A DNA stretch of 64,000 nucleotides from Rhodothermales bacterium (GTDB taxonomy: Bacteria; Bacteroidota; Rhodothermia; Rhodothermales; UBA10348): NCBI GenBank assembly GCA_017643395.1, contig JAEPNP010000001.1:1487001-1551000 (forward strand), read 5' to 3'. Below the pieces are notes generated by a model that saw only the letters and a program-made list of their open reading frames with translations, searched no databases and was not told the DNA's origin. Both the position numbers and the translations under genes were made by a program. Positions within the stretch are counted from its first letter, which is position 1. Every line of letters begins with the position of its first letter. This document shows positions 3,301 to 53,734 of the stretch, one piece after another.

Positions 3301-6300
3301 GTCGAAGGCGGTGGAGGTAGAGTCGGAAGCGTTCCGGATGCCGATGACCACGCTGTTCACACGCCCAAGCGACGGGGTGCCCTTAATGCCCAGGCGCGTG
3401 CCCGGAGGAGCGAATTCTTCGGCGTCCGGAGCGTCGGGTGAGACGAGCGTGTCTCCGACCACGTTGTAGAAGATGCTGTCCGGCGGGAAGGCCAGGCGGT
3501 CGCGTGCCACCTTGAGCTGATTCAGTGCGCCCAGGTCGATGTTGACCGAGTTGAGGTCCTGGATCTCGCCATTGAATTCCACGGCCGTTCCCCAGAGGGC
3601 ATCCGAGCTGCCGGCCGCTTCGCTGCTTGGTGTCAGCGGCTGCTCATATTCGTAGTAATCGTTGCTCTCGTTCGCGCCGATGCGCACGAACAGCTTCACC
3701 TTCTCACGCGCCTCTTCGATGGGCAGATTGGCGAGATCGGATCCATCTGCCAACTCCCCGTGCAGGTGCGTGAACATGCGCACATTGGAGTACTTGAGCA
3801 GGTCGAGCGCCGTGTTTTGTGTCTTGAAGATCGCTCGCTGCTTGCCGGGCAGCAGATTCTCTACACGCAACACGAGGGACTGCTCGCGCGCATTCTGCAC
3901 GCGGCCGGAGGCCAGGCGGGTCTGACTGACCACTGCGCCGATGGGCGGCGAGTAGAGGTCGGCGTTCTCCTCGTTGTTGATGGAGGAAATCGTCAGTCGG
4001 GTGTCGGCTCTCGCGGTATCCGCCACCGTCGAGCGCTCGAGGGTGATGCGCTCCGACTTCTGCCACTGACTGCCAACCAGCTCCAGGGCGGCAAACCGGA
4101 TGGTGACCGGCACCTGATGCCCAGTGGTCCAGATCCGGATGGACTCGATCAGACTGAAGTCCTGGATGTTGCCCACCTTCCGGGTGAACTCCTGCACGGG
4201 AATGCGCACCTGGTACCAGCCGGTGCCGACACCTTCAGCATCTGCAATTTCGCCGACCACGTAGTCATCCACGCGCCCGGGGGCTGCCAGGGAATCCAGC
4301 TTGGCGCGCTGCAGCGGCAGTTCGTACTGGAAATAGCTGTTGTCGGTGTCGACCGTGGAGTTGAGGTTGCGGTCTTCCGAGTCGGGGAATCGCGAGTTGC
4401 CGCGCTTGACCGAGGTGTTGGTCGCCAGCTTGGTCTGCGTCTCGAACGCATTCAGTTCGTGCCCGGCGAAGTACCGGGAGAATCGCTGCTGGAACGTGGC
4501 CCCGGTCGGGTAGAATGCCGGGTTCTCGTAGTACTCGCTGTTGCCGAAGTAGTGGTAGTCGTCGCCGGACGGGTCAACCAGCGCCTTTGCCACCTCCGCC
4601 CGGTAGCGCGGGTCGGGATCGCTCTGGTTGAGGCTCGAAACGAAGTCCGCAAAGTGCTGGGTCTCCGTAGAGAACGGCGGGTAGTCGCCTCCATAGGAAG
4701 CCAGACCGTCCAGTCCCAGGTCTTCGGTGCGATTGGTGGCGTCGTCGATGTCGACCACGCTGTTCTGGGTGGCGTTCGGTGACCGACCCCACTTCTGGAT
4801 GGATCCCTCGCTGACCGTTGACAGGGTGAGGCCGTCCTCGTTGTTCAGCTTCTCGTTGGGAAGGATGTCCTCGGAGATCGATCCCAGATCCACGTACAGC
4901 TTGGCCTGCGCGCCCGCGTCGTCCGCCGGATTCTCCGGGAAGGGCCGGAAGACGAACTCCACAAAATCGATGTTCTTCAGGCTGAAGTCCGTGAACCCCT
5001 CCGGCAGCCGCTGGGCCATGCCGCCCCATGTGTCCTCGGGCTTGGACAGGAAGTTCTTGAGCTCGGTGGTGTAGTTGTAGGGTCCGCGCTCCGAGGGGTT
5101 GAAGTAGATGTCCAGCGTTTCCAGCTGGTCGATGAGCTCTGCGCGCGTATCCCGGTTCGGGAAGACGTCATTGATCTGCAGCGGCTTGATGGCCTCCACG
5201 TTGTAGGCCACCGCCGGTACCTCGGCAAGCATGTTGGCGTTGATGCGGTACCAGGCGAACGTGCCACGCCAGGTCGTGCGCAGCGAGTCCGACACCGAGC
5301 CGCCCCGCACGCCCGCTCCGTCCACGGCACCAATCGAGTCCGGGGCCGCCGTCAGGGACCAGGTCCCGGGCTGCATGAGGGAGAACGTGTTCTCGAAGCC
5401 CTCGAAGTCGTCGATGTACGAGATGCCGGCCAGCTCATCGGCCGCAAAATCCCGGTCCGCCTTGCGCAGGTCCCTGCGTGTGCGCGTGAATGCGATGGTC
5501 TCCACGTGGTTGGGTCGCAGTTGCGCGAACTCACCCGTGAACGCCACCCGGGAGGGTTCTCTCGTCTGGATGAGCGGGAGCGCATCGACCGCGCGCGTCA
5601 GCCACCGGGGCTCGGCCTGGAAACTGCCGTCCACACCCCAGATGGTGTTCGATACAGGCTCCTCACCGATGCGGAATTTGTCGATGGGACTCTTCTGCGT
5701 GAGGCGCATGAGCGTGGCGCCGAGGCTGATGCGGTCATCCAGCGAGTAGTCGGCGCGCGCCCCGAGCAGGGTCTTCTTCTGCAGGTTGAAGAAGGAATTC
5801 TGCTCGTACTCGATGTTGATTTCGCGGCCGGCCGTCAGGAATGCAGGGTTGGTGATGGTCACCGTGCCGCCTGTGTAGTCGACGATGAAGTCTGCGTTTT
5901 CCTGCAGCGGTGTGCCTCCGGAGGTGACCCTGACGGAGCCCGGAATGAGGCCGGCATAGGCGCGCAGGTCATAGAAGTCGGAGACCGTGCCACTGTACTC
6001 GCCGCGGATGCGATACACGTCATGCTGCGAGTCCCGCCGGGCATTGGCCTTTTTCTGCGAGTACAGATTGCGGAAGACATACAGGTCCTCCAGCTCTTCG
6101 CTGCCGCCGGAGGCCGCGATCAGGTCCTGCATGCGGTCGCCGAACGGCTGGAGGTACGGGTAGATCAGGAGCCCATCGCCCGGTTCAATGGTGTAGTTGA
6201 CCAGAAAGTCGAACAGATCGTCCGGCTTGAGGGCCTGGTCCTCGTTGACCCGGTCGAGGCCGAGCATCTGAAGCAGCGTCTGCTGGCCGCCGACGCCGGG

Positions 6301-8638: not shown

Positions 8639-9322
8639 ATGAAGGGACAGACCATTGCCGTGACCGGTGCCGCGGGGCGGCTGGGCCGCGAGCTGGTTGC
8701 CGAGCTGGTGCGTCGTGAAGCCAACGTCGCCGCCATCGTAATGAATGACGCGGAGGCGCGTCTGGTACCCTCCGGGCGGTCGAGCAGGGTGGAGTCATTC
8801 ATCATGAACGTCACGGAGAGCCGATCGGTCTGTGACGGTTTCGAGCGCATCGCGAGTCGATTCTCCGGACTGGACGGCCTGGTGCACACCGTAGGCGGTT
8901 GGGCGATGACGCCGCTGCTTGAGACCGGCCGTCAACGCTGGGACGACATGATGGCCCTGAATCTGACCAGTGCGTTCCTGTGCTTTCGGGAAGCTTCGCG
9001 CGTGATGGTGACCGGGGACGGAGGCTGGCTGGTCGGCATCTCTTCAGGCCAGGGCGCCGAGCGCGGTGCAGGCGGTCAGTCGGCCTACTCGGCCGGCAAG
9101 GCTGGCGTGCTGCGCCTGGTGGAAGCAGTCGGCGAGGAGTTGGCCGATCGCGGCGTGTCTACCCTCGCGGTGGCTCCTTCCATGATCCTGTTTGACGACG
9201 ACAGTGACTGGGACGGCGTGCCCGTGGGCGATGTGGTGGCGGCCTGCCTCAGCCCCTGGAGCGACGACCCGCCGGAAAGTGGCGGGCTGCGGCGGGCGTA
9301 CGGCACGCTGGAGCCGGGGTGA
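8639..9322 (+). CDS. SDR-family NAD(P)-dependent oxidoreductase
   Basis: A 227-residue classical short-chain dehydrogenase/reductase. The nucleotide-binding motif TGAAGRLG is at residues 9-16, the catalytic Ser at 135-136 (GISSGQG), and Tyr150-xxx-Lys154 in SAYSAGKAG. Length and motif order fit a soluble cytoplasmic oxidoreductase; the substrate cannot be told from sequence. It starts at an ATG at 8639 and is divergent from sprA. The last residues (TLEPG) and the stop codon lie inside the first unit of a tandem repeat that fills the downstream 800 bases, so the native 3' end may have been replaced by repeat expansion. It converges on the saccharopine-dehydrogenase-like gene at 10126-11301. 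Confidence 0.87.
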   Translation: MKGQTIAVTGAAGRLGRELVAELVRREANVAAIVMNDAEARLVPSGRSSRVESFIMNVTESRSVCDGFERIASRFSGLDGLVHTVGGWAMTPLLETGRQRWDDMMALNLTSAFLCFREASRVMVTGDGGWLVGISSGQGAERGAGGQSAYSAGKAGVLRLVEAVGEELADRGVSTLAVAPSMILFDDDSDWDGVPVGDVVAACLSPWSDDPPESGGLRRAYGTLEPG

Positions 9323-9501
9323 TTTGGCTCCGGTCGGGCGCGGCGGGGGGCTGCGGCGCCGGGGCGGTTTGGCTCCGGTCGGCGTGCGGGGCTGTGGCGC
9401 CGGGGTGATTTGGCTCCAGTCGGCGCGCGCGGGGCTGCGGCGCCGGGGTAATTTGGCTCCAGTCGGCGCGCGGGGCTGCGGAACCGGGGCCGGTTAGGAG
9501 C
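9311..9501. repeat. Tandem repeat family A, about 43-bp units, 4 full copies plus a decayed fifth
   Basis: The core GGGGyGrTTTGGCTCCrGTC recurs with its GGGG at 9316, 9361, 9402 and 9445, and in degraded form at 9486 (spacings 45, 41, 43, 41). Copies end in GCGCGGGGCTG-like sequence. The first copy carries the SDR stop codon. Unit length is close to four helical turns. The array is in non-coding DNA between convergent genes. Confidence 0.85.
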
Positions 9502-9540
9502 CCCTCCGGCCCGGCAAACCGTATGAGCCCCCGGCGCGCG

Positions 9541-9698
9541 ACGTGGAAAAGTGCCGCCGAATCCCATGTATGGCCCTGTTCGCGCCGGCGTCGAGTGGAA
9601 AAATGGGGTTGAGTCCACATCGCGCGACAGCCAGGAGACGGCGGGGTGGAAAACCGGTGCCAGATCCCATATCGGGGCGGCTCCGGTGGCCGGCGGCC
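9541..9698. repeat. Repeat element B, copy 1 (158 bp)
   Basis: This 158-bp element recurs at 9877-10034 with 8 mismatches (about 95% identity). It contains three bipartite boxes, GTGGAAAA-N10-RTCC(A)CAT, starting at 9543, 9595 and 9646, so the boxes are 52 and 51 bases apart (five helical turns). All eight differences between the copies fall outside the GTGGAAAA boxes. The middle box forms the dyad GTGGA/TCCAC. Three reading frames stay open here because of high GC, so I do not treat it as coding. Confidence 0.85.
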
Positions 9699-9720
9699 AA
9701 GCCCGGGAGCGCCCCCGCCG

Positions 9721-9855
9721 GCCAAAGCAACCCTCCGGCGGCCAAGCCGCGAGCAATCCCTGGCGGCCAAAGCAACCCTCCGGCGGCCAAGCCGCGAGCA
9801 ATCCCTGGCGGCCAAAGCAACCCTCCTGCGGCCAAAGCGCGAGCGATCCCCCCGG
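9721..9855. repeat. Tandem repeat family C, 45-bp units, 3 copies
   Basis: Units begin GCCAAAGCAACCCTCC at 9721, 9766 and 9811. The first two 45-bp units are identical; the third is diverged in its second half. Each unit is itself two half-units that both begin GGCGGCCAA. A further partial copy is at 10058-10080, after the second B element. There are no unique spacers, so this is not a CRISPR array. Confidence 0.88.
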
Positions 9856-9876
9856 CGGCCCGGCGCTGGGCGCGCC

Positions 9877-10034
9877 ACGTGGAAAAGTGCCGCCGAATCC
9901 CATGTATGGCCCTGTTCGCGCCGACGCCGAGTGGAAAAACGGGGTTGAGTCCACATCGCGCAACCGCCAGGACACTGCGGGGTGGAAAACCGGTGCCAGA
10001 TCCCATATCGGGGCGGCTCCGGCGGCCGGCGGCC
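9877..10034. repeat. Repeat element B, copy 2 (158 bp)
   Basis: Second copy of the element at 9541-9698, offset by 336 bases, in the same orientation. Its GTGGAAAA boxes are at 9879, 9931 and 9982 with the same 52/51 spacing as in copy 1. It is followed, as copy 1 is, by GCCGGCCAAAGCAACCCTCC, so the B element and the start of family C were probably duplicated together. Confidence 0.85.
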
Positions 10035-10125
10035 AACCCGCAAGCGATCCCCCGCCGGCCAAAGCAACCCTCCGGCGGCCGGCGGCCAACCCCGGGAGCG
10101 CCTGGACCGTCAGCGACCCGGCGGG

Positions 10126-11301
10126 CTATCGCGCGCCCTGAGTGGGCGAAACGAAACCGTCCTCCCACGCCTCCGAAATCTCGAGCCCGCGGGCCTTCAG
10201 CGCGTCGAGCAGCAATTGGCCGGGAATCACCACCTCAGGAGGAGCAACCCCGCCACCGGGCACGTTGCCGGCCGCGATGTGCCGCGCAATCGCTGCCGCG
10301 GGGATGGCGGTGCAATGCTTCATCGCACTGATGCCCTGCGTCGGGTCGGCGTACTGAATGAGCTCGTAACGCAGCGTACGCGGCACACCGTTCACCTTGC
10401 CGTGAATGACGATGCGCATGAGCACGACATCCCGCTGGTGGCCCCCAAGCCGCTGCCGCATCCGCCGAACAAGCACGTCTCGATAGGTCAGATGCGTGCG
10501 TACGTCGAGACTCTTGGCCTCGGCGAAACCCAATCCGATGACGAAGCGCATACGGTCCGCGTGGCCAGGCCATCGGATGGTCTTCAGATCCAAGGTTCGC
10601 ACCTTTCCTTTGAGGCGCTCCGGAAGGGTTGCCAGGCCGCCCGCCGTACAAAACGCCTCGAGGTCCTCGAAGCCCTCGCCGAATGAGATGTCCTCCAGCC
10701 GGGTGAGGGGCTCACACCTGGTGACCTCACCGTTCTCGATGAGTTCGACCGGGCCCGTGTAGTCGTCGAGCACCTTTTCGGCGGACCAGGAGAAATTGAA
10801 CTTGAATGGCGGCTTGGGATCCTGGGGAATCGCGCCCACCCGGATGAAGGCCGCGTCCGGGTCGTCAAAGCGGTCGACTCCGTGCAGGCAGAGCACGTTG
10901 ACCAGGCCGGGCGCGATGCCGCAGCCAGGTACCACCCAAAGCCCCGCAGACTCGGCCAGATTCTGAAGATGGGCCAGGTCCGCTACTTCGTGATCGGAGG
11001 TACCCAGGTCGCAGTAGTGGCAGCCGTGTTCGAGCGCCAACCTGACCAGTTCGGGGATGCGGTCATTGGGAATCGCTCCCACCACCGCATCACATCGCTC
11101 CAGAATTGGCGCCATGGCGTCCGCATCGCGGGCCGATACCTGATAACTGCGCAACTTGTCGGACGAAATACTGCGCGAGATGTCCGCGAGGGCGCGGGCA
11201 CTCGTGTCACAGATGTGGACGTCCGTGATCTCGTCTGAAGCCGCGAGGTCGCGGGCAATCGCGGAGCCGACGGCTCCCGCTCCGATCACAAGAATGCGCA
11301 T
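10126..11301 (-). CDS. Saccharopine dehydrogenase-like NAD(P)-binding protein
   Basis: A 391-residue protein with an N-terminal Rossmann fold (GAGAVGSA at residues 7-14), the helix and strand order of the saccharopine dehydrogenase NADP domain, and a C-terminal half of the Lys9/LYS1-like type (GCGIAPGLVNVLCLHG near 150-165). Relatives act in lysine metabolism (saccharopine dehydrogenase or lysine 6-dehydrogenase) or in polyamine synthesis (carboxynorspermidine synthase); sequence alone does not decide. It starts at the ATG at 11301, divergent from the phosphofructokinase across a 143-base control region with a palindrome. No lysine or polyamine gene is adjacent. Its 3' end faces the repeat island. 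Confidence 0.82.
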   Translation of the reverse strand: MRILVIGAGAVGSAIARDLAASDEITDVHICDTSARALADISRSISSDKLRSYQVSARDADAMAPILERCDAVVGAIPNDRIPELVRLALEHGCHYCDLGTSDHEVADLAHLQNLAESAGLWVVPGCGIAPGLVNVLCLHGVDRFDDPDAAFIRVGAIPQDPKPPFKFNFSWSAEKVLDDYTGPVELIENGEVTRCEPLTRLEDISFGEGFEDLEAFCTAGGLATLPERLKGKVRTLDLKTIRWPGHADRMRFVIGLGFAEAKSLDVRTHLTYRDVLVRRMRQRLGGHQRDVVLMRIVIHGKVNGVPRTLRYELIQYADPTQGISAMKHCTAIPAAAIARHIAAGNVPGGGVAPPEVVIPGQLLLDALKARGLEISEAWEDGFVSPTQGAR

Positions 11302-53631: not shown

Positions 53632-53734
53632 GTTGTGGGGTCAGCCGCCGGAGCGTTTGACGTCCCAGCCGTAGGGAGCGAGAGTTGTGGGGTCAGCCGC
53701 CGGAGCGTTTGACGTCCCAGCCGTAGGGAGCGAG
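53632..53734. repeat. 51-bp perfect tandem duplication of the SUI1 3' end
   Basis: Bases 53632-53682 and 53684-53734 are identical (51 of 51) with one base between. The right-hand copy holds the last 14 codons of the SUI1 gene including its stop; the left-hand copy repeats the same codons beyond the stop, out of frame with it (period 52). Perfect identity points to a very recent event or an assembly fault. Confidence 0.9.

Follow-up and report, generated by a model that had tools for sequence, protein, structure and literature searches.

A dispersed triple-palindrome element in a Rhodothermales genome and its linkage to a gene for a phospholipase D-type protein

The window analysed in this study, a stretch of 64,000 nucleotides from the 4.5-Mb, 21-contig genome of a Rhodothermales bacterium (G000), contains a dense island of repeats between two convergent genes, which raises the question of whether these repeats are a purely local expansion or include an element that the genome carries elsewhere. 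The preliminary description had placed the island at 9311-10080. The location was right, while the gap itself spans 9323-10125 and position 9311 still belongs to the final codons of the left gene. The features of the locus, with gene calls made here and throughout by our own codon-usage script, are as follows.

8639..9322, + strand: left neighbour gene, from ORF and gene calls; the name SDR is that of the preliminary description
9323-10125, no strand: whole island, an 803-bp gap between two convergent genes, missing at the same junction in relatives
9313..9489, no strand: family A, tandem array in the left flank of the island, period about 41-43 bp; GC skew of the left flank +0.19
9541..9672, no strand: triple-dyad element, copy 1, with dyads at 9541-9569, 9593-9621 (weak) and 9644-9672
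9690..9850, no strand: family C, tandem array, period 45 bp, 3.6 copies
9877..10008, no strand: triple-dyad element, copy 2, with dyads at 9877-9905, 9929-9957 (weak) and 9980-10008
10026..10096, no strand: family C, partial further copies in the right flank, from repeat comparison
10126..11301, - strand: right neighbour gene, from ORF and gene calls; the name saccharopine-dehydrogenase-like is likewise that of the preliminary description

The repeat density of this gap is real, and the three highest-scoring tandem arrays of the window in Tandem Repeats Finder (278, 243 and 241) are those of the island. The next array (206), at 53632-53734, is a perfect 52-bp tandem repeat of two copies, in which the weight matrix described below finds no dyad. 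Family A, first given as about 43 bp in 4.5 copies, is present with a period of 41 bp (or 84) and 4.2 copies (or 2.1) from 9309/9313 to 9489, and, judged by eye, the sequence around the stop codon of the left gene was its seed. Family C has the period of 45 bp assigned to it, with 3.6 copies in place of three and an additional copy of 76% identity at 10050. Element B does occur twice; its length, however, is 171 bp and not 158 bp (9533-9703 and 9869-10039, offset 336 bp, identity 94%), and the three palindromes inside each copy had been overlooked. The word GTGGAAAA occurs three times per copy, always inside an arm of a dyad 28-29 bp long. The dyads of copy 1 score 26.4, 2.5 and 24.1 bits with spacings of 52 and 51 bp, and those of copy 2 score 26.4, 4.4 and 24.1 bits; a sequence model, R1, matched the outer two dyads of copy 1 and all three of copy 2. 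The two copies differ at 0 of 42 arm positions, 1 of 33 centre positions and 6 of 45 spacer positions. The judgement that the island is non-coding also held, in that the gene caller, trained on this genome, placed no gene there, though long ORFs cross several frames. Beyond the island, the window has a single matrix hit (36792, 10.1 bits), which is probably a chance match. Families A and C and the doubling of element B are ordinary repeat expansion, one of the readings offered at the outset. Element B itself is not a product of chance, because its dyads recur elsewhere in the genome.

The recurring unit is a 29-bp dyad with the consensus A.GTGGAAT..GG...CC..ATTCCAC.T. A pattern derived from it matched the genome 40 times, against once for the pattern read backwards, and a sequence model trained on 43 sites yielded 184 matches with E no higher than 10 in an Infernal search that scored 150 of 2002 candidates. 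The dyads are thus dispersed over the genome, and the condition named at the outset, an island unique to this contig, is refuted. Sixty stretches picked around the model or pattern hits were combined with the window (536 kb in all, with densities that are not genome averages), and a weight matrix retrained on them found 249 dyads of at least 10 bits in the 61 stretches and none in the reversed-sequence control. The commonest distances between dyads were 52 bp (85 cases), 103 bp (20), 51 bp (19) and 53 bp (18). When neighbours at 49-55 bp were joined, 100 runs resulted, comprising 77 of three dyads, 16 single dyads, 3 of four, 2 of five and 2 of two. All three dyads reached 10 bits in 53 of the 77 triplets. 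The rule that admits weak neighbours contributed 23 middle members and only 1 end member, which shows that weak middle dyads are more than noise and that the rule has not simply made runs longer; both triplets of the window are of this weak-middle type. Element B is therefore one of at least 77 dispersed triplets, and its 52-bp spacing corresponds to five helical turns, which puts the dyads of a triplet on one helical face.

Several individual loci may be recorded here. At L224 (10738-11685), a 315-residue ORF without a Pfam match lies between two similar triplets in a cassette-like arrangement; the triplets are direct by eye, while the orientation fit assigned them opposite signs. L209 has three triplets (3807-4431) in the region upstream of a lexA homologue. 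Dyads also occur about 0.1-2.6 kb from the ends of contigs C1, C2, C3, C4, C5 (both ends), C7 and C8, and the islands may break the assembly.

The elements are located almost exclusively between genes: 237 of the 249 dyads are intergenic, 5 lie in genes and 7 at the edges of stretches. Whether such islands always fall between convergent genes had been put forward as a check, and they do not: 23 of the 61 island gaps are convergent, 30 tandem and 8 divergent. Compared with the remaining gaps in these stretches, convergent gaps are nevertheless enriched for islands (odds ratio 4.2, p=7e-6). The islands have a median G+C content of 0.716, compared with 0.640 for other intergenic DNA. Moreover, where both flanks were at least 60 bp long, the GC skew of the left flank exceeded that of the right in 46 of 47 islands of this genome and in 17 of 18 islands of G225, regardless of gene orientation; the strand is rich in G and T on the 5' side of the triplets and rich in C and A on the 3' side, as exemplified by the flanks 9323-9540 and 10009-10125 of the window. 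The AT skew behaved likewise in 35 single-triplet islands. No neighbour function was common to the islands, the most frequent Pfam family (secretion tail) occurring in no more than 7 of the 124 flanking genes. A long inverted repeat spanning the islands was not found either, as the flanks of 25 single-triplet islands were no more complementary than shuffled sequences (median z 0.47, one above 3).

The island junctions were then compared with those of relatives. Judged by ORFs, the genes flanking the island of the window touch or overlap each other in G221 and G222; in G224 and G225, alignment ends place them about 25 bp from each other, and no dyad lies between them in any of the four. In the congener G222, of which 1.47 of about 4.7 Mb (about one third) was compared, eight of eight conserved island junctions had no dyad, and their median gap was 74 bp against 616 bp in G000, whereas the gaps of 83 other junctions were kept (median 39 bp in G000, 44 bp in G222). 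Because all eight conserved junctions are empty in G222, the islands are lineage-specific gains. Conservation of island positions between genera was considered and rejected, since only one flanking gene was common to the 24 islands of G225 and those of G000, and there the island lies on the other side of the gene.

The dyad itself is confined to few genomes. A scan of 244 genomes of the class with GTGGAAW-N11-WTTCCAC, allowing at most one mismatch, gave 172 hits in G000 (control 0), 27 in G225 (control 0), 18 in G222 (control 3) and 6 in G221 (control 0), and most remaining genomes were near their controls. The matrix found 62 dyads in the stretches fetched from G225 (control 0) and 21 in the G222 sample (control 6). 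Exactly three dyads were present in 7 of the 33 runs of G225; the others were 5 fours, 2 twos and 19 singles, many of them of another class. A stricter two-site pattern, applied to 84,980 species, retrieved 67 stretches, of which 6 came from JANJTM01, a Rhodothermales MAG, and 3 from JAJCYP01. Clostridial and Lysobacterales loci from the pattern scan were set aside, as their palindrome layouts differ by eye; the clostridial MAG loci L121, L132, L141, L169, L173 and L174 carry alternating TTCCAC/GTGGAA boxes at similar spacing in several places, possibly a convergent system. A phage or plasmid origin was also considered and was dropped, as no protein match was obtained among plasmid or phage records. 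In viral contigs, none of the 57 stretches that fit the peptide patterns was confirmed, and 11 viral pattern hits had no triplet.

The sequences of the elements were then examined for what has been preserved. Spacers are 37% identical between islands, which is near random, and flanks 34%, while spacers within an island are 81% alike; no pair of triplets from different islands resembles a recent duplicate. Among 16 duplicate pairs within islands, three of which share an island, so that not all of the pairs are independent, the differences amounted to 15 of 672 positions in arms, 32 of 528 in centres and 84 of 733 in spacers. Arms had thus diverged by 2.2% after duplication and spacers by 11.5% (p=2e-12). 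These values exclude 6 of 22 pairs for unequal spacer length or low similarity, two of which differ at 6 of 42 arm positions through a shift, and include one pair, at L210, whose arms and spacers are equally diverged. Since the arms are less diverged than the spacers after duplication, and the spacers are near random between islands, the arms appear to be under selection where they stand. Because the matrix recognises sites by their arms, it could miss decayed copies, and a BLAST check was made for these: of its 7 matches beyond the called triplets, 5 include or adjoin a called single dyad, and the other 2 lie at one place, L205 1232-1282, which may be a decayed piece.

Palindromes of this kind might act as hairpins in RNA or as cruciforms, for instance as small RNAs or terminators. 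Each dyad could give a stem of up to 9 bp, and many islands lie at gene ends. However, the arms showed no covariation over 14 pairs in 102 non-redundant dyads (z +0.9 to -3.4), and no Rfam match was obtained up to E=1. A hairpin function is accordingly very improbable in our estimate, and the earlier suggestion of a source of small RNA is not sustained. Because the arms do not covary, the dyad is most likely recognised as double-stranded DNA, and its reader would be a dimeric protein.

A candidate for this reader was found beside the islands. The absence of a transposase noted at first is correct for the island by its gene calls, but at other places in the genome the element is linked to a nuclease-type gene. 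This gene, with a phospholipase D-like (PLD) domain (PF13091), flanks an island in both G000 and G225, which by itself is, on a rough estimate, about what chance would give. A 134-residue query from the PLD core detected, among 27 genomes of the family, two copies in G000, three in G225 and one in G222, and none in any other genome. These three genomes are the three richest in dyads of the family, a coincidence of 1 in 2925 if random. In G221, with its six pattern hits, the gene was not found in an assembly that is 88% complete and in 630 contigs. All six gene copies have dyads within 500 bp; the fair test is provided by the four copies that were not used in picking the gene (C7, C51, C63 and C110). 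Five of the six have dyads on the likely start or upstream of it, and in four of these a dyad shares positions with the likely start codon or directly adjoins it, the starts having been chosen by us and that of L414, a GTG inside a dyad, being uncertain. The exception is L419, where a triplet lies 169 bp downstream of the gene. As a background rate, among the 481 genes of stretches chosen for their islands, only 8 carry a dyad between -150 and +60 relative to the called start. At L418 one dyad was found by the matrix (13.6 bits) and the class-C triplet was read by eye, as was the third dyad at L416. Strong tblastx matches among the six loci, taken with 1.5 kb on each side, cover the gene only, and weaker, short matches occur outside the genes. 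Genes for tRNA-Thr, tRNA-Pro and tRNA-Phe lie within about 300 bp of the genes at L416 and L417 and of the island at L232.

The encoded protein, here called HTH-PLD, appears to combine a helix-turn-helix-like N-terminus with a C-terminal, single-HKD phosphodiesterase domain of the phospholipase D type, and is 197 to 247 residues long with the starts that we chose. Its PLDc_2 domain (PF13091) was recognised at E=9e-15, and the motif HxK(x)4D(x)nGSxN is invariant in all six copies (H144, K146, D151, G157, S158 and N160 of L419). In the N-terminal region, W17, T18, W23, D30, A35, G39, C40, N44, V45, R48, F52 and R53 (L419 numbering) are invariant. This region looks like a helix-turn-helix, to judge from the arrangement of residues, from a Sigma70_r4_2 match that one protein of three gave below threshold (E=0.057) and from helices predicted at low confidence. 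In profile comparisons, the top match was a virion nicking-joining enzyme (30ie, E=2e-9), followed by the endonuclease 1byr (E=5e-7) and, weakly, by TrmBL2 (E=0.03). An AlphaFold2 model from two sequences had a mean pLDDT of 45, and the fold and the putative dimer are therefore proposed from sequence.

Furthermore, paralogues of the gene adjoin different kinds of site. The arrays of G225 comprise three half-site classes, GTGGAA, GTTGAA, and ATTGGAA with ATGTCGAA; classes B and C were identified by word counts and by eye. The three HTH-PLD genes of G225 (C8, C63 and C51) adjoin one dyad class each. In G000, the paralogue on C7 has GTT-type dyads, which also form an array at L257 4126. The putative recognition helix carries A-N in both proteins of the GTT class and S-N in three of the GTGGAA class, a hint, among six proteins, that this difference may track the site class.

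Among known systems, the nearest way of working is that of REP sequences and their RAYT transposases, of which the defining enzyme and the stem-loop were not found here. In published accounts, REP and BIME elements are dispersed intergenic palindromes in clusters, some with transposase genes (PMC3733652; PMC2817692), and a REP is a stem-loop-forming palindrome with a GTAG or CGTC tag (PMC3733652). The dyads are similarly intergenic, dispersed and clustered, in 61 islands. In contrast, the Y1 transposase (PF01797) has no match in G000 or G225 (4 of the 27 family genomes match, G222 included), the consensus contains neither tag, the arms do not covary, the dyads come mostly three per element, and the linked gene is of the PLD type. 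A RAYT/REP system was rejected on these grounds. The elements do not form a CRISPR array, as the dyads are degenerate, mostly three per run, and the spacers are 81% alike within islands. Nor do they match a MITE, where likeness over the whole length would be expected, given the low identity of spacers and flanks between islands; the intergenic DNA of the congener has diverged too far for element ends to be located.

The protein also has partial counterparts. BfiI is described (PMC10388346) as a homodimer with a PLD domain and two DNA-binding domains that engages two sites. HTH-PLD likewise appears to join a PLD domain to a DNA-binding domain, and its profile matches the Nuc-type endonuclease 1byr; its DNA-binding part, unlike that of BfiI, would be N-terminal and HTH-like. 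Moreover, the hundreds of conserved chromosomal sites seen here would presumably not be tolerated by a cutting restriction enzyme. TrmBL2 is an HTH protein that acts as chromatin, coats the chromosome and is described as binding unspecifically (PMC4877046). The putative N-terminal HTH and a weakly matching C-terminal domain of HTH-PLD recall TrmB and TrmBL2, although Pfam TrmB scored 22.0, 14.4 and 11.7 bits in the three proteins scanned, all below the cut-off of 22.2, and HTH-PLD differs from TrmBL2 in its intact HKD motif and its specific triplet sites. The nearest named PLD families by HMM are the defence proteins DISARM DrmC, DpdK and MkoB (best E 6e-10 in NCBIfam and 3e-11 in PADLOC), but the scores fall far short, with 39 bits where the curated cut-off is 133 and 35 bits where it is 100. 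ParB at parS and Noc are dimeric DNA-binding proteins that bind dispersed dyads for chromosome-wide tasks; they differ in the dyad, in the number of dyads per locus, here three, and in the protein family. A gyrase site was considered because the element is near the length of the gyrase motif, about 130 bp (PMC6379681), and was rejected by eye, as no comparable periodicity of the 10-bp profile was seen. In the open-licence papers searched, those found for phospholipase D together with repetitive extragenic palindromes were unrelated, judged by titles; among the matches listed for Rhodothermus palindromic repeats, judged by title and start of abstract, none is of this kind, and for intergenic repeats of Rhodothermaeota only work on Porphyromonas appeared.

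Taken together, element B is probably a dispersed binding platform for the HTH-PLD protein, which would also control its own gene. A dimer of HTH-PLD would match the symmetry of the dyad, and three dimers would sit on each triplet, on one helical face, with a period of 52 bp. The gene itself would be repressed through a triplet lying over its promoter and start codon. Elements would be acquired lineage by lineage in gene junctions, convergent ones most readily, and after their gain selection on the dyad arms would hold them. The triplet unit, its dispersal and gain by lineage, the low divergence of its arms, the absence of hairpin covariation, and the co-distribution and physical linkage with the gene are results of the computation; dyad binding, dimerisation and autoregulation by the protein are inferences. 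Beyond these, HTH-PLD might spread the elements, cut at them or organise the chromosome.

Two versions of this binding platform have to be weighed. In one, which we regard as a real possibility falling somewhat short of an even chance, the role is structural only: the triplets would be nucleoid tethers or transcription insulators and HTH-PLD an architectural factor, its phosphodiesterase idle or used for self-control only, with new sites rare and selection keeping the number of sites and not their place. Such a role is favoured because the elements are conserved in place and there are no young copies; the arms are the least diverged part, decayed copies are few, the location of islands is not conserved, and islands are enriched between convergent genes. 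It is also in line with the weak profile match to the archaeal HTH chromatin protein TrmBL2 (PMC4877046), although that match is indeed weak, and loss of the HKD motif, invariant in all six proteins, would be expected if the domain were idle. As to the organiser or transcription barrier suggested in the preliminary description, conserved dyad triplets do fit a protein-bound element, but the sites are not specific to convergent genes. In the other version, possible though on balance doubtful, the elements form a non-autonomous mobile family, MITE- or REP-like and now mostly old, with HTH-PLD as the transposase. The intact HKD motif, the lineage-specific gains and the gene copies in six contexts favour an enzyme by which the elements are made or moved. 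The strong tblastx matches limited to the gene, the dyads over its own start, the ORF between two similar triplets at L224 and the nicking-joining enzyme as best profile match point the same way, whereas spacers are near random between islands, the young copies that active copying should leave are absent, no fixed element ends were seen, and flanks of different islands are dissimilar. The more weakly founded part of our proposal is that the elements owe their origin or spread to the phosphodiesterase activity, in an economy like that of REP and RAYT but with a PLD enzyme in charge, and do not have a structural role only. Both roles may hold, as in domesticated transposases.

Explanations without such a platform fare less well. 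If the triplets were ordinary operators, forming a large transcription-factor regulon over neighbouring genes, the dyads at the likely (author-chosen) start codons of four HTH-PLD copies and the island upstream of the lexA homologue at L209 would be readily understood. Promoters are not expected in the 23 convergent islands, however, only 8 islands are divergent, and the neighbours share no function, which makes this explanation unlikely. To an assembly artefact or a mere GC-rich repeat expansion we give almost no credence. Several contigs of G000 do end near dyads, the flanks are GC-rich and often repetitive, and expansion does account for families A and C; against this, the triplet architecture is common to three assemblies (G000, G222 and G225) and the reversed control was empty.

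In conclusion, the triple-palindrome elements and their likely nuclease-like partner would form a chromosome-wide system of sites that seems to be of a new kind. We propose only tentatively that it represents a new DNA-mobilising or DNA-marking class, in which HTH-PLD, a small phosphodiesterase outside the known transposase types, recognises, spreads and polices triple-palindrome sites and its paralogues have co-diverged with their site classes. The PLD superfamily, known for defence proteins, enzymes of lipids and nucleases that stand alone, would be linked by this system to specific sites across a chromosome, and the system would offer a clean test case for the gain, multiplication and retention of dispersed palindromes. 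The five-turn spacing of the triplet leads to a sharp biochemical prediction, namely three dimers on one face of the helix, and the paralogues with matched site classes would constitute a natural experiment on DNA specificity.
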